64,000 bases of DNA, from NCBI RefSeq assembly GCF_014203355.1, contig NZ_JACHIR010000001.1, positions 2,420,038-2,484,037 of the forward strand, in the 5' to 3' direction. The notes below the pieces were generated by a model. That model was not told the DNA's origin and did no database searches. It was given only the letters and a program-made list of their open reading frames with translations. Shown piece after piece: positions 3,932 to 48,594 of the stretch (positions are counted from its first letter, which is position 1; each line of letters starts with the position of its first letter). A program made the translations under genes and the position numbers. Source of the DNA: Kutzneria kofuensis. GTDB taxonomy: Bacteria; Actinomycetota; Actinomycetes; Mycobacteriales; Pseudonocardiaceae.

Positions 3932-3978
3932 ACGTGAGTGGCTCATGTGCCCCCTGGCGGCAAGTCAGCCACTCACGT
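3932..3978. repeat. 47-nt palindromic repeat, copy 4
   Basis: Perfect 11-bp arms ACGTGAGTGGC/GCCACTCACGT and a total of 47 nt match copies 1 and 2, but the middle is unrelated in sequence. It lies 33 nt after the stop of the minus-strand CGNR gene and 43 nt before the hydrolase start. Confidence 0.8.
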
Positions 3979-14269: not shown

Positions 14270-16006
14270 ATGGCGCAGACCGTCGCCGACCAGCTCATCG
14301 AGGTGCTCCGGCAGGCCGGCGTACGCCGGGTGTACGGCCTGGTGGGTGACAGCCTGAACCCGATCGCCGACGCGATCCGCCGCACGCCGGACGTCGAATG
14401 GGTGCACGTCCACAACGAGGAAGCGGCGGCGCTGGCCGCAGCGGCGGATGCGCAGCTCACCGGGCGGCTCGCGGTGTGCGCCGGCAGCTGCGGACCCGGC
14501 AACACGCACCTGGTCCAGGGCCTGTACGACGCGCACCGCAGCGGCGCCCCGGTGCTGGCGATCGCGTCCCACATCCCGTCCACGCAGATCGGCACCAACT
14601 ACTTCCAGGAGACGCACCCGCAGCACCTGTTCCTGGAGTGCAGCGACTACTGCGAGCTGGTGTCCCGGCCCGAGCAGATGCCCCGGATGCAGCGGATCGC
14701 CATGCAGACGGCGCTGGCCAAGCAGGGCGTCGCGGTGCTGGTGCTCCCCGGCGACCTGACCGCGGAGCCGGCCGCGCATCCCACCGGCGCCAGCCATCTC
14801 GTCGAGACGCGGGCGGTCGCCGTGCCGGCCGAGGACGCGGTCCACCAGCTGGCCGCCAAGATCAACCAGGCGCGGACGGTGAGCCTGTTCGTCGGGGCCG
14901 GCGTCCGCGACGCCCGCGCCGAGGTGCTGGAGCTCGCCGCCAAGGTGCATTCGCCGATCGGCCACTCGCTCGGCGGCAAGGAGTGGATCCAGTACGACAA
15001 CCCGTACGACGTGGGCATGAGCGGGCTGCTCGGCTACGGCGCCTGCTACGAGGCGACGCACGAGGCCGACCTGCTGATCCTGCTCGGCACCGACTTCCCG
15101 TACGACACGTTCCTGCCGCAGGCGCACACCGTGCAGGTCGACCACGACGCCGCCCGGCTCGGCCGGCGGACCCGGCTGGACCTGGGCGTCGAGGGCGACG
15201 TCGGGGCGACGCTGCGGGCCGTGCTGCCGCTGGTGCGGCAGAAGACCGACCGCTCGTTCCTGGACCGGATGTTGCGCAAGCACGCCGACGCCCTGGAGAA
15301 GGTTGTCGCCGCGTACACGGCGAGGGTCGAGAAGATGCGGCCGGTGCATCCCGAGTACGTGGCGGCGGTGCTGGACGAGCTGGTCGCCGACGACGCCGTG
15401 ATCACCGTGGACACCGGCATGTGCAACGTGTGGGCGGCGCGGTACCTCACGCCCAACGGCCGGCGGCGGATCATCGGCTCGTTCCGGCACGGCACCATGG
15501 CCAACGCCCTGCCGCACGCCATTGGCGCCGCGCACGCGCAGCCGGGGCGGCAGGTGGTGTCGATGTCCGGCGACGGCGGGCTGACGATGCTGCTCGGCGA
15601 GCTGCGCACGGTCAAGGAACGCGACGTGCCGGTGAAGATCATCGCCTTCAACAACGGGTCGCTGGGCATGATCCGGCTGGAGATGATGGTCGCCGGCTAT
15701 CCGTCGTTCGAGACCGACCACGGCGTCGCCGACCTGGCCGGCATCGCCCGGGCCTGCGGCGTTCCGGCCGAGGTGGTGGAGGATCCGGCCGATCTCCGCG
15801 GCACCCTGGAGACGGCGCTGGCCGCTCGGGGCCCGTTCCTGGTCGACGTCCGCACGGATCCCAACGCGCTGTCCATCCCGCCGCACATCACCGCCGCGCA
15901 GGTGCGGGGCTTCGCGCTGGCGGCGACACGGACCGTGCTGGACGGCGGCGTCGGCAAGATGATCGAGCTGGCCCGAAGCAACCTGCGCTCGATCCCGCGG
16001 CCCTAG
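14270..16006 (+). CDS. poxB: Pyruvate oxidase / pyruvate dehydrogenase (quinone), PoxB-like ThDP enzyme
   Basis: This 578-residue ThDP-dependent enzyme matches the length of PoxB. The N-terminal PYR domain has GLVGDSLNPIADAIRR and HVHNEEAAALAAAADA with the cofactor-activating Glu. AGSCGPGNTHLVQGLYDAHRS is a PoxB hallmark. A central FAD/TH3 domain follows, then the PP domain with the ThDP motif GDGGLTMLLGEL...NNGSLGMI. PoxB converts pyruvate to acetate and CO2, passing electrons to the quinone pool at the membrane. ATG at 14270 follows GGAGGAG and starts the PYR domain. An acetolactate-synthase-like role is the alternative, but the motifs favour PoxB. Confidence 0.88.
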   Translation: MAQTVADQLIEVLRQAGVRRVYGLVGDSLNPIADAIRRTPDVEWVHVHNEEAAALAAAADAQLTGRLAVCAGSCGPGNTHLVQGLYDAHRSGAPVLAIASHIPSTQIGTNYFQETHPQHLFLECSDYCELVSRPEQMPRMQRIAMQTALAKQGVAVLVLPGDLTAEPAAHPTGASHLVETRAVAVPAEDAVHQLAAKINQARTVSLFVGAGVRDARAEVLELAAKVHSPIGHSLGGKEWIQYDNPYDVGMSGLLGYGACYEATHEADLLILLGTDFPYDTFLPQAHTVQVDHDAARLGRRTRLDLGVEGDVGATLRAVLPLVRQKTDRSFLDRMLRKHADALEKVVAAYTARVEKMRPVHPEYVAAVLDELVADDAVITVDTGMCNVWAARYLTPNGRRRIIGSFRHGTMANALPHAIGAAHAQPGRQVVSMSGDGGLTMLLGELRTVKERDVPVKIIAFNNGSLGMIRLEMMVAGYPSFETDHGVADLAGIARACGVPAEVVEDPADLRGTLETALAARGPFLVDVRTDPNALSIPPHITAAQVRGFALAATRTVLDGGVGKMIELARSNLRSIPRP

Positions 16007-29024: not shown

Positions 29025-29067
29025 GAAAGGACCATTCCACACGTTCAACGTCAGGAATGGTCCTTTC
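29025..29067. repeat. 43-nt palindromic element, copy A (after the GH2 gene)
   Basis: Arms of 21 bp (two mismatches) surround a single central C. The central nine bases are CGTTCAACG. The element starts 6 nt after the GH2 stop codon and probably terminates that operon. Two further elements of the same length and core occur at 34997 and 48552. Confidence 0.8.
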
Positions 29068-29081
29068 ATGGCGGTCCGGGT

Positions 29082-29126
29082 GGAACGGGCCGTTCCTCGA
29101 TCCCGAGTCGAGGAACGGCCCGTTCC
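29082..29126. terminator. Hairpin terminator of the minus-strand ThiF/YcaO-like gene
   Basis: Perfect 19-bp arms (29082-29100 and 29108-29126) with a 7-nt loop lie directly after the minus-strand stop at 29128. The two convergent genes thus have separate terminators. Confidence 0.8.
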
Positions 29127-29127
29127 G

Positions 29128-30495
29128 TCAGGGCAACAGCACGATCTGCGTCACGAACGGAAGCAGTCGGGCCGCCGCCGGGTCCGCGTCCAGCGGCACC
29201 GCGACCGGAGTGCACCCGGTCTCCGCCGCCAGCATCTTCGCCAGCGCGTCCACATCGGACGGTGTCGTCTCGTCGGCCCAGCGCCGCACCGGCGCCATCG
29301 GATCCCGGCGCCGCTCGCAGTGCGCCTGGAGCCCCGCCGCGACGGCGTCGTTCCAGCACAGGCCGGCCGCGGCGCCCACCTCCGCGTGCGGCCCCTGCTG
29401 GTCCAGCCACACCCGTCGACGGCCGCCCGTGATCAGGTCCGTGCCCCACGTCCAGCCGCGTCCCGCCGCCAGCGCGCCGTAGCTTGCCATCGCCGCAAGC
29501 ACGGCACGCACCTTCGCGGTCTGCGGGTCGCTCGCCCAGCCCACGACCCGGTGGGCCGGCCACCTCCGCCGTGGATCCGCGACCGTTGCCCAGCTGACGA
29601 CGCCGGCCTGCTCGACGGCGGAGAGCAGGCCGACGTACGGGTCCACGAACGCCGGCAACCGGTCCAGCAGCGCCGCCGGCCCCACCGGCTCGGCCGACGG
29701 CGCCTCCGCCACCGGCCCGCCCCACTGGTAGCGGTGCTCGGTGATCTCCAGCGAGTCGAGGTCCAGCCTCAGCAGCGTCGGCTTCGCGGCTTGAGAAGCG
29801 CCGGTGAGGTAACGGAAGGCGGTCAACGCCACCTGCGTCCCGATCAGCGCCGCCGTGACCCCGCCCAGCGCCGCCCCCGACGCGGCACTGGCCGGCGGAG
29901 CCGCCGACGGATCGGTCTCGGCGACCGGCACTTCGGGCTCGTTCCCGGCCATCCCGGCGGCGAGCGCCACGCCCGGCACGCGCTTCGGCAACCGGCCGGC
30001 GGTCGGCGCCACCGGCTTCTCCTCCGGAACCAGCCGGCGCCAGGCCGCCTCGACGGACCGGCCGCCCGCCGTGTGCACCGGCGTCATCCAGGCATCCCGC
30101 CCCCGCACGAACACCTGGGTCAACGACACGTTCTCCGCCCGGCAGCGCCGACACATGTCAATCAACTCGCCGATATCGGACGATACGTGCACGACCAGAT
30201 CGGTCTCGGCGAGATGCGCGCCGATTCGGTCGACGGAATCGGTCAAGACGTGTTGGAATTCGTCGCGCAATGCGTATTCGGGCACGGTGTCGGTGAACAC
30301 GCGGGTGCGCCGCCAGCCGGAGCCGACGCCGGCCCGCAGCACGGCGCCGAGCACCGGCCCGTCGCCGACAACGGCGACCCGCGCCTGACGCAGCCGGTAG
30401 AACCCCTGCTCAGCGGGGGCAATCTCGATCTCGGAGCGGTATTCGACGGCCTCGGCGGCGGTGAGGCCGGTGATGGTCCCGGTGCACTGGCTCAC
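29128..30495 (-). CDS. Orphan protein with ThiF-like and YcaO-like halves (TOMM maturation-like)
   Basis: This is a 455-residue protein. The N-terminal half resembles the ThiF/E1-like domain of bacteriocin cyclodehydratases: RLRQARVAVVGDGPVLGAVLRAG near residue 35, VHVSSDIGELIDMCRRC, VFVRGRDAWMTPVH, then AALIGTQVALTAFRYLTG. A Pro/Ala-rich insert separates it from a C-terminal half resembling the start of a YcaO domain: AFVDPYVGLLSAVEQAG, SDPQTAKVRAVLAAMASYGAL, WNDAVAAGLQAHCER. The YcaO part stops early, before the ATP-binding end of full-length enzymes. The zinc cysteines of ThiF proteins are not evident. Heterocycle formation in a peptide is therefore only a possibility; a substrate-presenting or degenerate role is as likely. 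The GTG start is followed by no partner gene on its strand. Confidence 0.6.
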   Translation of the reverse strand: MSQCTGTITGLTAAEAVEYRSEIEIAPAEQGFYRLRQARVAVVGDGPVLGAVLRAGVGSGWRRTRVFTDTVPEYALRDEFQHVLTDSVDRIGAHLAETDLVVHVSSDIGELIDMCRRCRAENVSLTQVFVRGRDAWMTPVHTAGGRSVEAAWRRLVPEEKPVAPTAGRLPKRVPGVALAAGMAGNEPEVPVAETDPSAAPPASAASGAALGGVTAALIGTQVALTAFRYLTGASQAAKPTLLRLDLDSLEITEHRYQWGGPVAEAPSAEPVGPAALLDRLPAFVDPYVGLLSAVEQAGVVSWATVADPRRRWPAHRVVGWASDPQTAKVRAVLAAMASYGALAAGRGWTWGTDLITGGRRRVWLDQQGPHAEVGAAAGLCWNDAVAAGLQAHCERRRDPMAPVRRWADETTPSDVDALAKMLAAETGCTPVAVPLDADPAAARLLPFVTQIVLLP

Positions 30496-30559
30496 GACGG
30501 CTCACCGCGCCGCGCCGCGGCCGACACGCCGCACCAGGGATGAATGGAAGGTAAACACC

Positions 30560-30673
30560 GTGCGGTTCGCACCCTTTTGCGGTCGCCGGCCCGAATTGAC
30601 GGCAGCGGCCATCGCTACACCCGACATGAAATGCCTCGATTCGACGTGGTTTCCCCCCGAACGCAGACTGTAG
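30560..30673 (+). CDS. Candidate small peptide ORF (37 aa), divergent from the ThiF/YcaO-like gene
   Basis: GTG at 30560 is preceded by GGAAGG 8 nt upstream, an excellent ribosome site, and opens 37 codons. The peptide starts MRFAPFCGRRPEL and ends CLDSTWFPPERRL, with two Cys, several Thr/Ser and a Trp-Phe-Pro-Pro segment. Third-position GC (about two thirds) is lower than in neighbouring genes, so normal coding bias is absent, as is common for peptide precursors or for non-coding DNA. Its divergent position 64 bp from the maturation-like gene makes a substrate peptide conceivable. This is speculative. Confidence 0.3.
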   Translation: MRFAPFCGRRPELTAAAIATPDMKCLDSTWFPPERRL

Positions 30674-30753: not shown

Positions 30754-31020
30754 TCACAGGCCGTCGACCAGTGCGCGCACCTCAGGATCGCGCACCTCGA
30801 ACACGTCCAGCACGCCGATGCGAACCAGTGCGGGCTTCAGCTCCCGCAGCTGCCGCACGATCGTCTCCCACCGAGGGTCGCTCGGTTCCACCTCGGCCAG
30901 CGCGCGCACGTTGCCGATGAACGCGGCGACCGACCCCTTGCGCACGTACTCGCCGCCGAATTCGGTGCCCTCCGCGCCGTCGGGCAGCACATCCTCCGGC
31001 TTCACAACGTTGCCTGCCAT
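30754..31020 (-). CDS. Small protein (88 aa) of unknown function
   Basis: ATG at 31020 follows GAGGAGGAAG, a strong ribosome site, supporting a real gene. The product begins MAGNVVKPEDVLPDGAEG and contains EYVRKGSVAAFIGNVRALAE and RQLRELKPALVRIGVLDVFEV. It is soluble, acidic-to-neutral, with helical character and no cysteine. I do not recognise the family. It lies on the same strand as the ThiF/YcaO-like gene, 258 bp upstream of it. Its own upstream region holds several palindromes shared with the divergent DUF4436 gene. Confidence 0.7.
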   Translation of the reverse strand: MAGNVVKPEDVLPDGAEGTEFGGEYVRKGSVAAFIGNVRALAEVEPSDPRWETIVRQLRELKPALVRIGVLDVFEVRDPEVRALVDGL

Positions 31021-31041: not shown

Positions 31042-31096
31042 TGCGTGCTTCCTGCACGCATCAGCAACGGTAGCCACCATACGTGCAGTTTGCACG
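31042..31096. promoter_or_regulatory. Two CGTGC-N5-GCACG palindromes
   Basis: CGTGC-TTCCT-GCACG (31044-31058, extended to TGCGTGC/GCACGCA) and CGTGC-AGTTT-GCACG (31082-31096) share the same half-sites and spacing, 38 bp apart. They lie between the 88-aa gene and the DUF4436 gene. Two equal copies suggest a dimeric regulator binding both. Confidence 0.5.
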
Positions 31097-34996: not shown

Positions 34997-35039
34997 GAAG
35001 GGGGCATTCCTGGCGTTGAACGCCAGGAATGCCCCCTTC
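34997..35039. repeat. 43-nt palindromic element, copy B (within the mce operon)
   Basis: Perfect 21-bp arms around one central base start 5 nt after the mceF stop codon. On the mce coding strand the core reads CGTTCAACG, the same as in copies A and C. A hairpin this strong should attenuate transcription into the two Mce-associated genes. Confidence 0.85.
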
Positions 35040-48551: not shown

Positions 48552-48594
48552 GAATGCTCCTTTCCTCACGTTCAACGTCAGGAAAGGAGCATTC
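48552..48594. repeat. 43-nt palindromic element, copy C
   Basis: Arms of 21 bp (one mismatch) around a central C; the core CGTTCAACG reads in the direction of the upstream gene. It starts 12 nt after the stop of the secreted two-domain protein and ends 16 nt before the stop of the convergent GH5 gene, so it may serve both genes. Confidence 0.85.

Follow-up and report, generated by a model that had tools for sequence, protein, structure and literature searches.

The window analysed here, a stretch of 64,000 nucleotides that corresponds to C1:2420038–2484037 of the 10.4-Mb Kutzneria genome (G000, the own genome below), carries a 455-aa gene at 29128–30495 on the minus strand. This gene raises the question of what a maturation protein of TOMM type does at a locus from which its pathway is missing. 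It starts with GTG, its frame is open over 455 codons, and the N-terminus MSQC is invariant in all five copies found in the genus. Directly 3' of the stop codon lies a hairpin with 19-bp arms (29082–29126), at which the transcript of the gene might possibly end. The window also holds three long hairpins that resemble each other in sequence (such as GAAAGGaCCATTCC ... GGAATGGtCCTTTC; 29025–29067, 34997–35039 and 48552–48594) and apparently represent one family of recurring intergenic elements, and a ACGTGAGTGGCTT-like repeat array of alternating orientation with several overlapping hairpins is seen at 2714–2893 and 3932–3978. The sequence-only reading had proposed a minimal or degenerate peptide-modification system for the locus, in which a ThiF-like half and an early-ending YcaO-like half would act on a small product encoded nearby.

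Profile searches with the single 455-aa sequence gave 9.8 bits (E 0.2) for TIGR03693, below the NCBIfam cut-off of 561.9, and 12.1 bits (E 0.11) for ThiF PF00899. TIGR03882 had no match, and PF02624, the Pfam YcaO family, matched neither this protein nor three orthologues, in which a complete ATP-binding YcaO domain was not found. The TIGR03693 cut-off is non-discriminating here because seven longer actinobacterial F proteins themselves score just 80–128 bits. For profile–profile comparison we aligned the four intact Kutzneria orthologues (alignment A1; the broken G142 copy was left out) and five longer F proteins (A4; the G005 F gene, L029, split over two frames, was left out). In hhalign, A1 matched A4 with Prob 100 and E 2.1e-48, at 38% identity over 351 columns. 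At the level of sequence, this comparison shows that the 455-aa gene has its ancestry among the TOMM F (Ocin-ThiF) scaffold proteins; the ThiF-like first half proposed before is thus borne out by profile–profile comparison, whereas the single-sequence profiles were weak or silent. A structure model built from three sequences, with a mean pLDDT of 52 and a second half mostly under 50, was usable for parts of residues 30–155 and 210–250. In residues ~30–155 of this model, strands and helices alternate in what reads as a Rossmann-like arrangement, and Foldseek placed ThiF and MoeB as top matches with E about 1e-7, the model being confident in parts only. The heterocyclase 4v1v, which we take to be LynD, was matched with E 2e-6, but at an rmsd of 20.

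The F proteins themselves have a composite architecture. Alignment A4 matched an alignment of four SagD-type YcaO proteins (A3) with Prob 97.8 and E 9.3e-13, and PF02624 scored above its cut-off in two of the five full-length F proteins, but not in the other three. Hence a full F protein consists of an RRE, a ThiF-like part and a degenerate YcaO-like half, of which the 455-aa protein inherits the last two in part. The structurally solved PbtF domain 8t19, presumably the RRE, aligns with A4 positions 11–90 (E 1.8e-22); A1 found no match to solved structures by sequence, and its comparison with A3 was not significant (Prob 1.2%). The 455-aa family aligns to A4 from position 100–122 to 525 and again from ~645 to 689. 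The N-terminal RRE, the leader-peptide binding feature by which F proteins are recognised, is absent, and F positions of about 525–647 (~120) are gone from inside the YcaO-like half. The second half of the protein thus corresponds to the YcaO-like half of the F proteins, as had been read, but rather than ending early it has suffered an internal loss and retains the C-terminal stretch TPVAVPLDADPAAARLLPF of the F proteins.

In thiopeptide and heterocycloanthracin pathways, F proteins are known to carry the leader peptide. RRE-Finder describes RREs fused to TIGR03693 proteins in heterocycloanthracin and thiopeptide clusters (PMC7470986). Another study describes F-like proteins in which the RRE binds the leader and the other domain binds the enzymes; in TclI of the micrococcin pathway, the precursor is bound by the N-terminal RRE, and the C-terminal domain on its own copurifies both enzymes, one of them less strongly (PMC10634744). 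As of 2015, two F proteins only were counted outside heterocycloanthracin or thiopeptide clusters (PMC4603692). Our literature search on Ocin-ThiF, Kutzneria thiopeptides and orphan TOMM/RRE found neither an RRE-less orphan F protein nor the present locus in the text portions available. Having lost the part that grips the peptide as well as its partner genes, the 455-aa protein probably does a different job. Our prediction, to which we give an even chance, is that this scaffold survived its cluster as a pseudoenzyme and was exapted; azole synthesis by the protein alone is unlikely.

How far this RRE-less form extends is seen from its relatives. The 455-aa protein was matched in 10 of 150 genomes of the family. 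Four other genomes of the genus have orthologues in the same neighbourhood, beside the 88-aa gene, with identities of 78% in G057, 80% in G126 and 77% in G109; in G142 the frame is broken, leaving open frames of 313 and 253 aa that overlap, so that four of five genus copies are intact. The gene is missing from two of the seven genus genomes, namely G019, with a distant F protein match only, and G087, with no match. Remaining family matches sit in open frames of 567–802 aa. When ten matched proteins were scanned with profiles, five were F proteins (TIGR03693 79.9–127.7 bits) and four SagD-family YcaO proteins, three of which adjoin those F proteins and one of which lies in L029; no profile matched the last of the ten, the G057 orthologue. 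Across 298 genomes of the order, the A1 profile recovered the own gene and weak pieces in six others, one of them the L064 F protein, which was included in the tree.

In this tree of 41 rows, from which G142, G005 (L029) and F-profile matches such as L094, L121 and L122 were omitted, the four orphans group together with full support (100/100), and the stem leading to them is long, with 1.04 changes per site. Their clade is nested in a set of nine rows (100/100) with L027, L028, L030, L081 and L084. Kutzneria F proteins located beside SagD (L032, L070, L072, L073, L074 and L075) fall outside this set, and on the tree we rejected a recent duplication of the orphan from them. SagD directly follows the F genes in L028, L030/L139, L137 (place of L081) and L138 (place of L084). 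In L137, 1.7 kb behind the SagD of such an F and SagD pair, we noted a 59-aa peptide (14690–14869, plus strand) whose N-terminus resembles a leader and whose end contains Cys/Ser, likely a TOMM precursor of the subfamily ancestral to the orphan. F-profile matches of equal score and opposite orientation also lie near both ends of G022:C1 (20212–21087 and 11772497–11773372), as expected for terminal inverted repeats; the F profile matched in G083 and G029:C14 as well.

Partner genes were sought both at the locus and in the rest of the genome. In the 64-kb window, neither a SagD-type YcaO nor a second F protein was found among frames of at least 60 aa at E 1e-5, so that no D-type cyclodehydratase was found adjoining the gene. 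In 7.7–10 kb around all five orphan loci, frames of at least 20 aa searched at E up to 0.5 yielded no separate RRE or SagD piece. The F profile matched solely the orphan itself there, on which we rejected a separately encoded nearby RRE, and the SagD profile matched the orphan itself (E 0.012–0.14) and a 29-aa frame in L024 (E 0.37) that we take as a chance match. F homology, the missing RRE and the missing partners together agree with the earlier view of an orphaned and degenerate maturation protein of TOMM type. Because RRE and neighbouring cyclodehydratase were both sought and not found, neither "TOMM system" nor "true F protein" is a suitable label for the gene. By its sequence it is a genuine and conserved peculiarity, a scaffold of TOMM type that lost substrate recognition and pathway neighbours.

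An RRE-less scaffold could nevertheless serve peptide maturation in trans, by supporting or modulating a cyclodehydratase whose gene lies in another part of the genome. The own genome offers two candidates for this, a pair of SagD and full-length F at G000:C1 about 1.09 Mb and a stand-alone YcaO of about 400 aa at G000:C1:7367418–7368614 (L076, L153), which shares invariant Glu and Arg columns with SagD proteins. No E1 partner was noticed for the latter. The stand-alone YcaO occurs in five of seven genus genomes, including all four other orphan-bearing ones, and was not found in G019 and G087. Precedent might come from sulfomycin, where the E1/Ocin-ThiF-like SulC and SulE stand outside the RRE carriers listed in the available text (PMC10634744). 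However, 10 non-Kutzneria genomes among the 150 also encode the stand-alone YcaO, none with an RRE-less orthologue (G005 and G029 have an F protein of the usual type), and we thus rejected co-occurrence as specific evidence. Moreover, in G057 the orphan is intact and the search for a full-length F was negative, its two YcaO matches being a C–D fusion and one of the stand-alone type, whereas G019 has SagD and F without the orphan. In the tree, the orphan is also well apart from the F proteins that Kutzneria itself has. We consider maturation in trans unlikely, though not negligibly so.

At a similarly low level of probability, the gene might be a remnant in decay that no longer has a function. 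The loss of the RRE and of about 120 internal positions, the long stem and the broken copy in one of five genomes would all fit decay, and decay apparently can be seen at work in L027, a MAG contig on which an intact full-length F is followed by a mere 36-residue SagD match (E 3e-8, L027:3957–4286, minus strand). Also, dN of the 455-aa gene is 0.13–0.19 versus 0.04–0.12 for two flanking genes, hence the protein evolves faster than its neighbours. Against a remnant stand four frames that remained intact despite considerable synonymous divergence, with dN/dS of 0.20–0.34 in all six pairs of intact copies (Nei–Gojobori, pairwise), as well as the invariant MSQC start and the conserved C-terminus. 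For comparison, dN/dS was 0.17–0.29 in all nine pairs of the two flanking genes and 0.21–0.80 in the six pairs of the 88-aa gene, which has few sites. These ratios are to be read with dS uncertain under GC-rich codon usage; Nei–Gojobori was used, an alternative estimator giving no value in 9 of 21 comparisons (455-aa, 88-aa, beta-galactosidase and acyl-CoA ligase-like genes). G142 and the G109 beta-galactosidase were omitted, and the G126 88-aa row begins one codon late. For the four intact copies, the sequence comparison shows a conserved frame and purifying selection. The broken frame, the absence of the gene from two of seven genomes, the elevated dN and the low-confidence second half nevertheless count against exaptation.

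Could the locus itself be a minimal TOMM system with a small product as substrate? Adjacency and the known chemistry of the family speak for this, and two candidates had been named. The first, a 37-aa ORF at 30560–30673 on the plus strand, has the coordinates, the upstream GGAAGG and the 64-bp gap to the 455-aa gene that had been described, and its start lies inside a longer frame of 70 codons (30461–30673). Its frame, however, contains stops in three of the four orthologous stretches (G057, G109 and G142), G126 having a 29-codon version, and the DNA alignment of these stretches shows single-base indels. It overlaps an inverted repeat with 11-bp arms and a 35-bp loop (30626–30636/30672–30682), located between the 455-aa and 88-aa genes, that is partly conserved as DNA in the orthologues. 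The ORF does not look like a real conserved gene, is judged spurious and is ruled out as precursor; the peptide part of the sequence-only reading, which had been made to depend on its conservation, is thereby refuted. The second candidate, the 88-aa gene (30754–31020, minus strand), encodes a protein without Cys and with 2 Ser and 2 Thr. A conserved precursor peptide with a Cys/Ser/Thr core is thus offered by neither, the first being broken and the second Cys-free, and the 88-aa gene is likewise ruled out as TOMM precursor, also because its relatives occur without an F-like neighbour. As, in addition, no RRE was found at the locus and no SagD-type YcaO in the window, the proposed peptide-modifying system is not supported, and a minimal TOMM system is very improbable. 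Least probable of all is an active E1-like enzyme that would adenylate or activate the 88-aa C-terminus, since, although Foldseek groups the first half with ThiF/MoeB/E1 folds and a small protein adjoins, the glycine-rich loop reads GDGPVLG where the E1-type motif is GxGGxG, and the 88-aa protein, whose relatives do without an F-like neighbour, has no GG end.

As a neighbour, the 88-aa gene fared better. Inspection of the homologous loci found it upstream of the 455-aa gene in all five Kutzneria loci that have the latter, so that the gene is confirmed as a conserved neighbour. Its nearest named family appears to be DUF7709 (PF24813), on matches below the cut-off: 18.6 bits (E 0.002) for the own product and E 6e-4 and 1.6e-5 for two relatives, the best at 25.3 bits, with a gathering cut-off of 33.3. 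A PF24813 search in 60 family genomes gave one weak match, which was not in the own genome, and a literature search on DUF7709 found no paper. The 88-aa model has a pLDDT of 72 and no PDB match with E under 2.

Among the 150 genomes, 10 matched the 88-aa protein, and the copies that we read outside Kutzneria were six in four genomes (G089, G022 twice, G060 twice, G050), with 32–49% identity; a G006 match inside a 438-aa frame (E 6.7e-4) was excluded from the resulting 11 copies. All six are accompanied by a divergent MarR-type gene, confirmed by Pfam MarR for three, and in none of their loci did the F profile match. No divergent MarR gene was found beside the five Kutzneria copies, where a palindrome pair remains; a MarR homologue with 56–60% identity is encoded elsewhere in four of the five genomes, the best of the own genome having 30%. 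The pair, of CGTGC-N5-GCACG type with 23 bp between, lies at 31044–31096 upstream of the 88-aa gene. In the form of YGTGY-N5-RCACR occurring twice, 15–30 bp apart, it precedes 11 of 11 copies of the family and, among the loci examined, was found nowhere else; it is operator-like in sequence and might be a putative operator. An exact form of the pattern, which misses the Kutzneria copies, occurred at 9 places in 3 of 10 genomes. Further pairs of this type were seen at G022:C1:2517472–2517524 and G060:C9:530947–531000, possible additional members of the same regulon.

Weighing these observations, we consider it most likely that the 455-aa protein works as a predicted protein-docking pseudoenzyme, with the 88-aa protein as a possible partner. 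An ancestral TOMM F protein with RRE, ThiF-like docking domain and degenerate YcaO-like half would have lost its cyclodehydratase, precursor and dehydrogenase and also, in an order that we can only infer, its RRE and part of the YcaO-like half. Within the genus, a single lineage would then have retained the docking half under purifying selection, on the downstream side of the small DUF7709-like gene, whose operator-type promoter is conserved. There the protein may bind a partner but no longer hand over a leader peptide; this partner is perhaps the 88-aa protein, and the two could form one regulon under a MarR-type repressor. As 258 bp, including a hairpin, separate the two genes, their co-transcription remains putative, and since the six relatives outside the genus have no F-like neighbour, any partnership of both proteins would be Kutzneria-specific. 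We may further speculate, with clearly less confidence than in exaptation as such, that the RRE-stripped scaffold was recruited as partner of a MarR-controlled DUF7709-like protein, forming a new two-protein unit of stress or signal response that no longer modifies peptides.

A selected RRE-less F copy outside a recognised cluster separates docking from substrate delivery and provides a natural experiment on the role of the ThiF/YcaO-like half by itself. For genome mining it is a warning that an F-like gene alone is not evidence for a peptide product. The palindrome pair, in turn, gives a testable handle on the 88-aa family of small proteins.

Among known systems, DUF7709 (PF24813) is matched weakly by the 88-aa product, below 33.3 bits. 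For the 455-aa protein, the TruD 4bs9 structure was weakly matched by the A4 profile (E 0.0046), and the domain order of the fused cyclodehydratases TruD and LynD, which is RRE, E1-like and YcaO in the available text, is that of the 455-aa ancestor (PMC10634744). In contrast to these enzymes, the 455-aa protein lacks the RRE and a complete YcaO domain. Likened by description, sulfomycin SulC and SulE have an Ocin-ThiF-like part apparently without RRE, as the 455-aa protein does, but they work within their cluster in SulBC, SulEFG and SulDEFG complexes with RRE-bearing subunits, as far as the available text describes them (PMC10634744). From the TOMM F proteins (TIGR03693; HcaF, PbtF, TclI) the 455-aa protein differs by the missing RRE, the internal deletion and a neighbourhood in which no cyclodehydratase or second F was found; HcaF and TclI are likened to it by description, and the sequence comparison was made with actinobacterial F proteins. 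Homology to the latter covers the ThiF-like domain and the first portion of the YcaO-like half and resumes in the C-terminal stretch.
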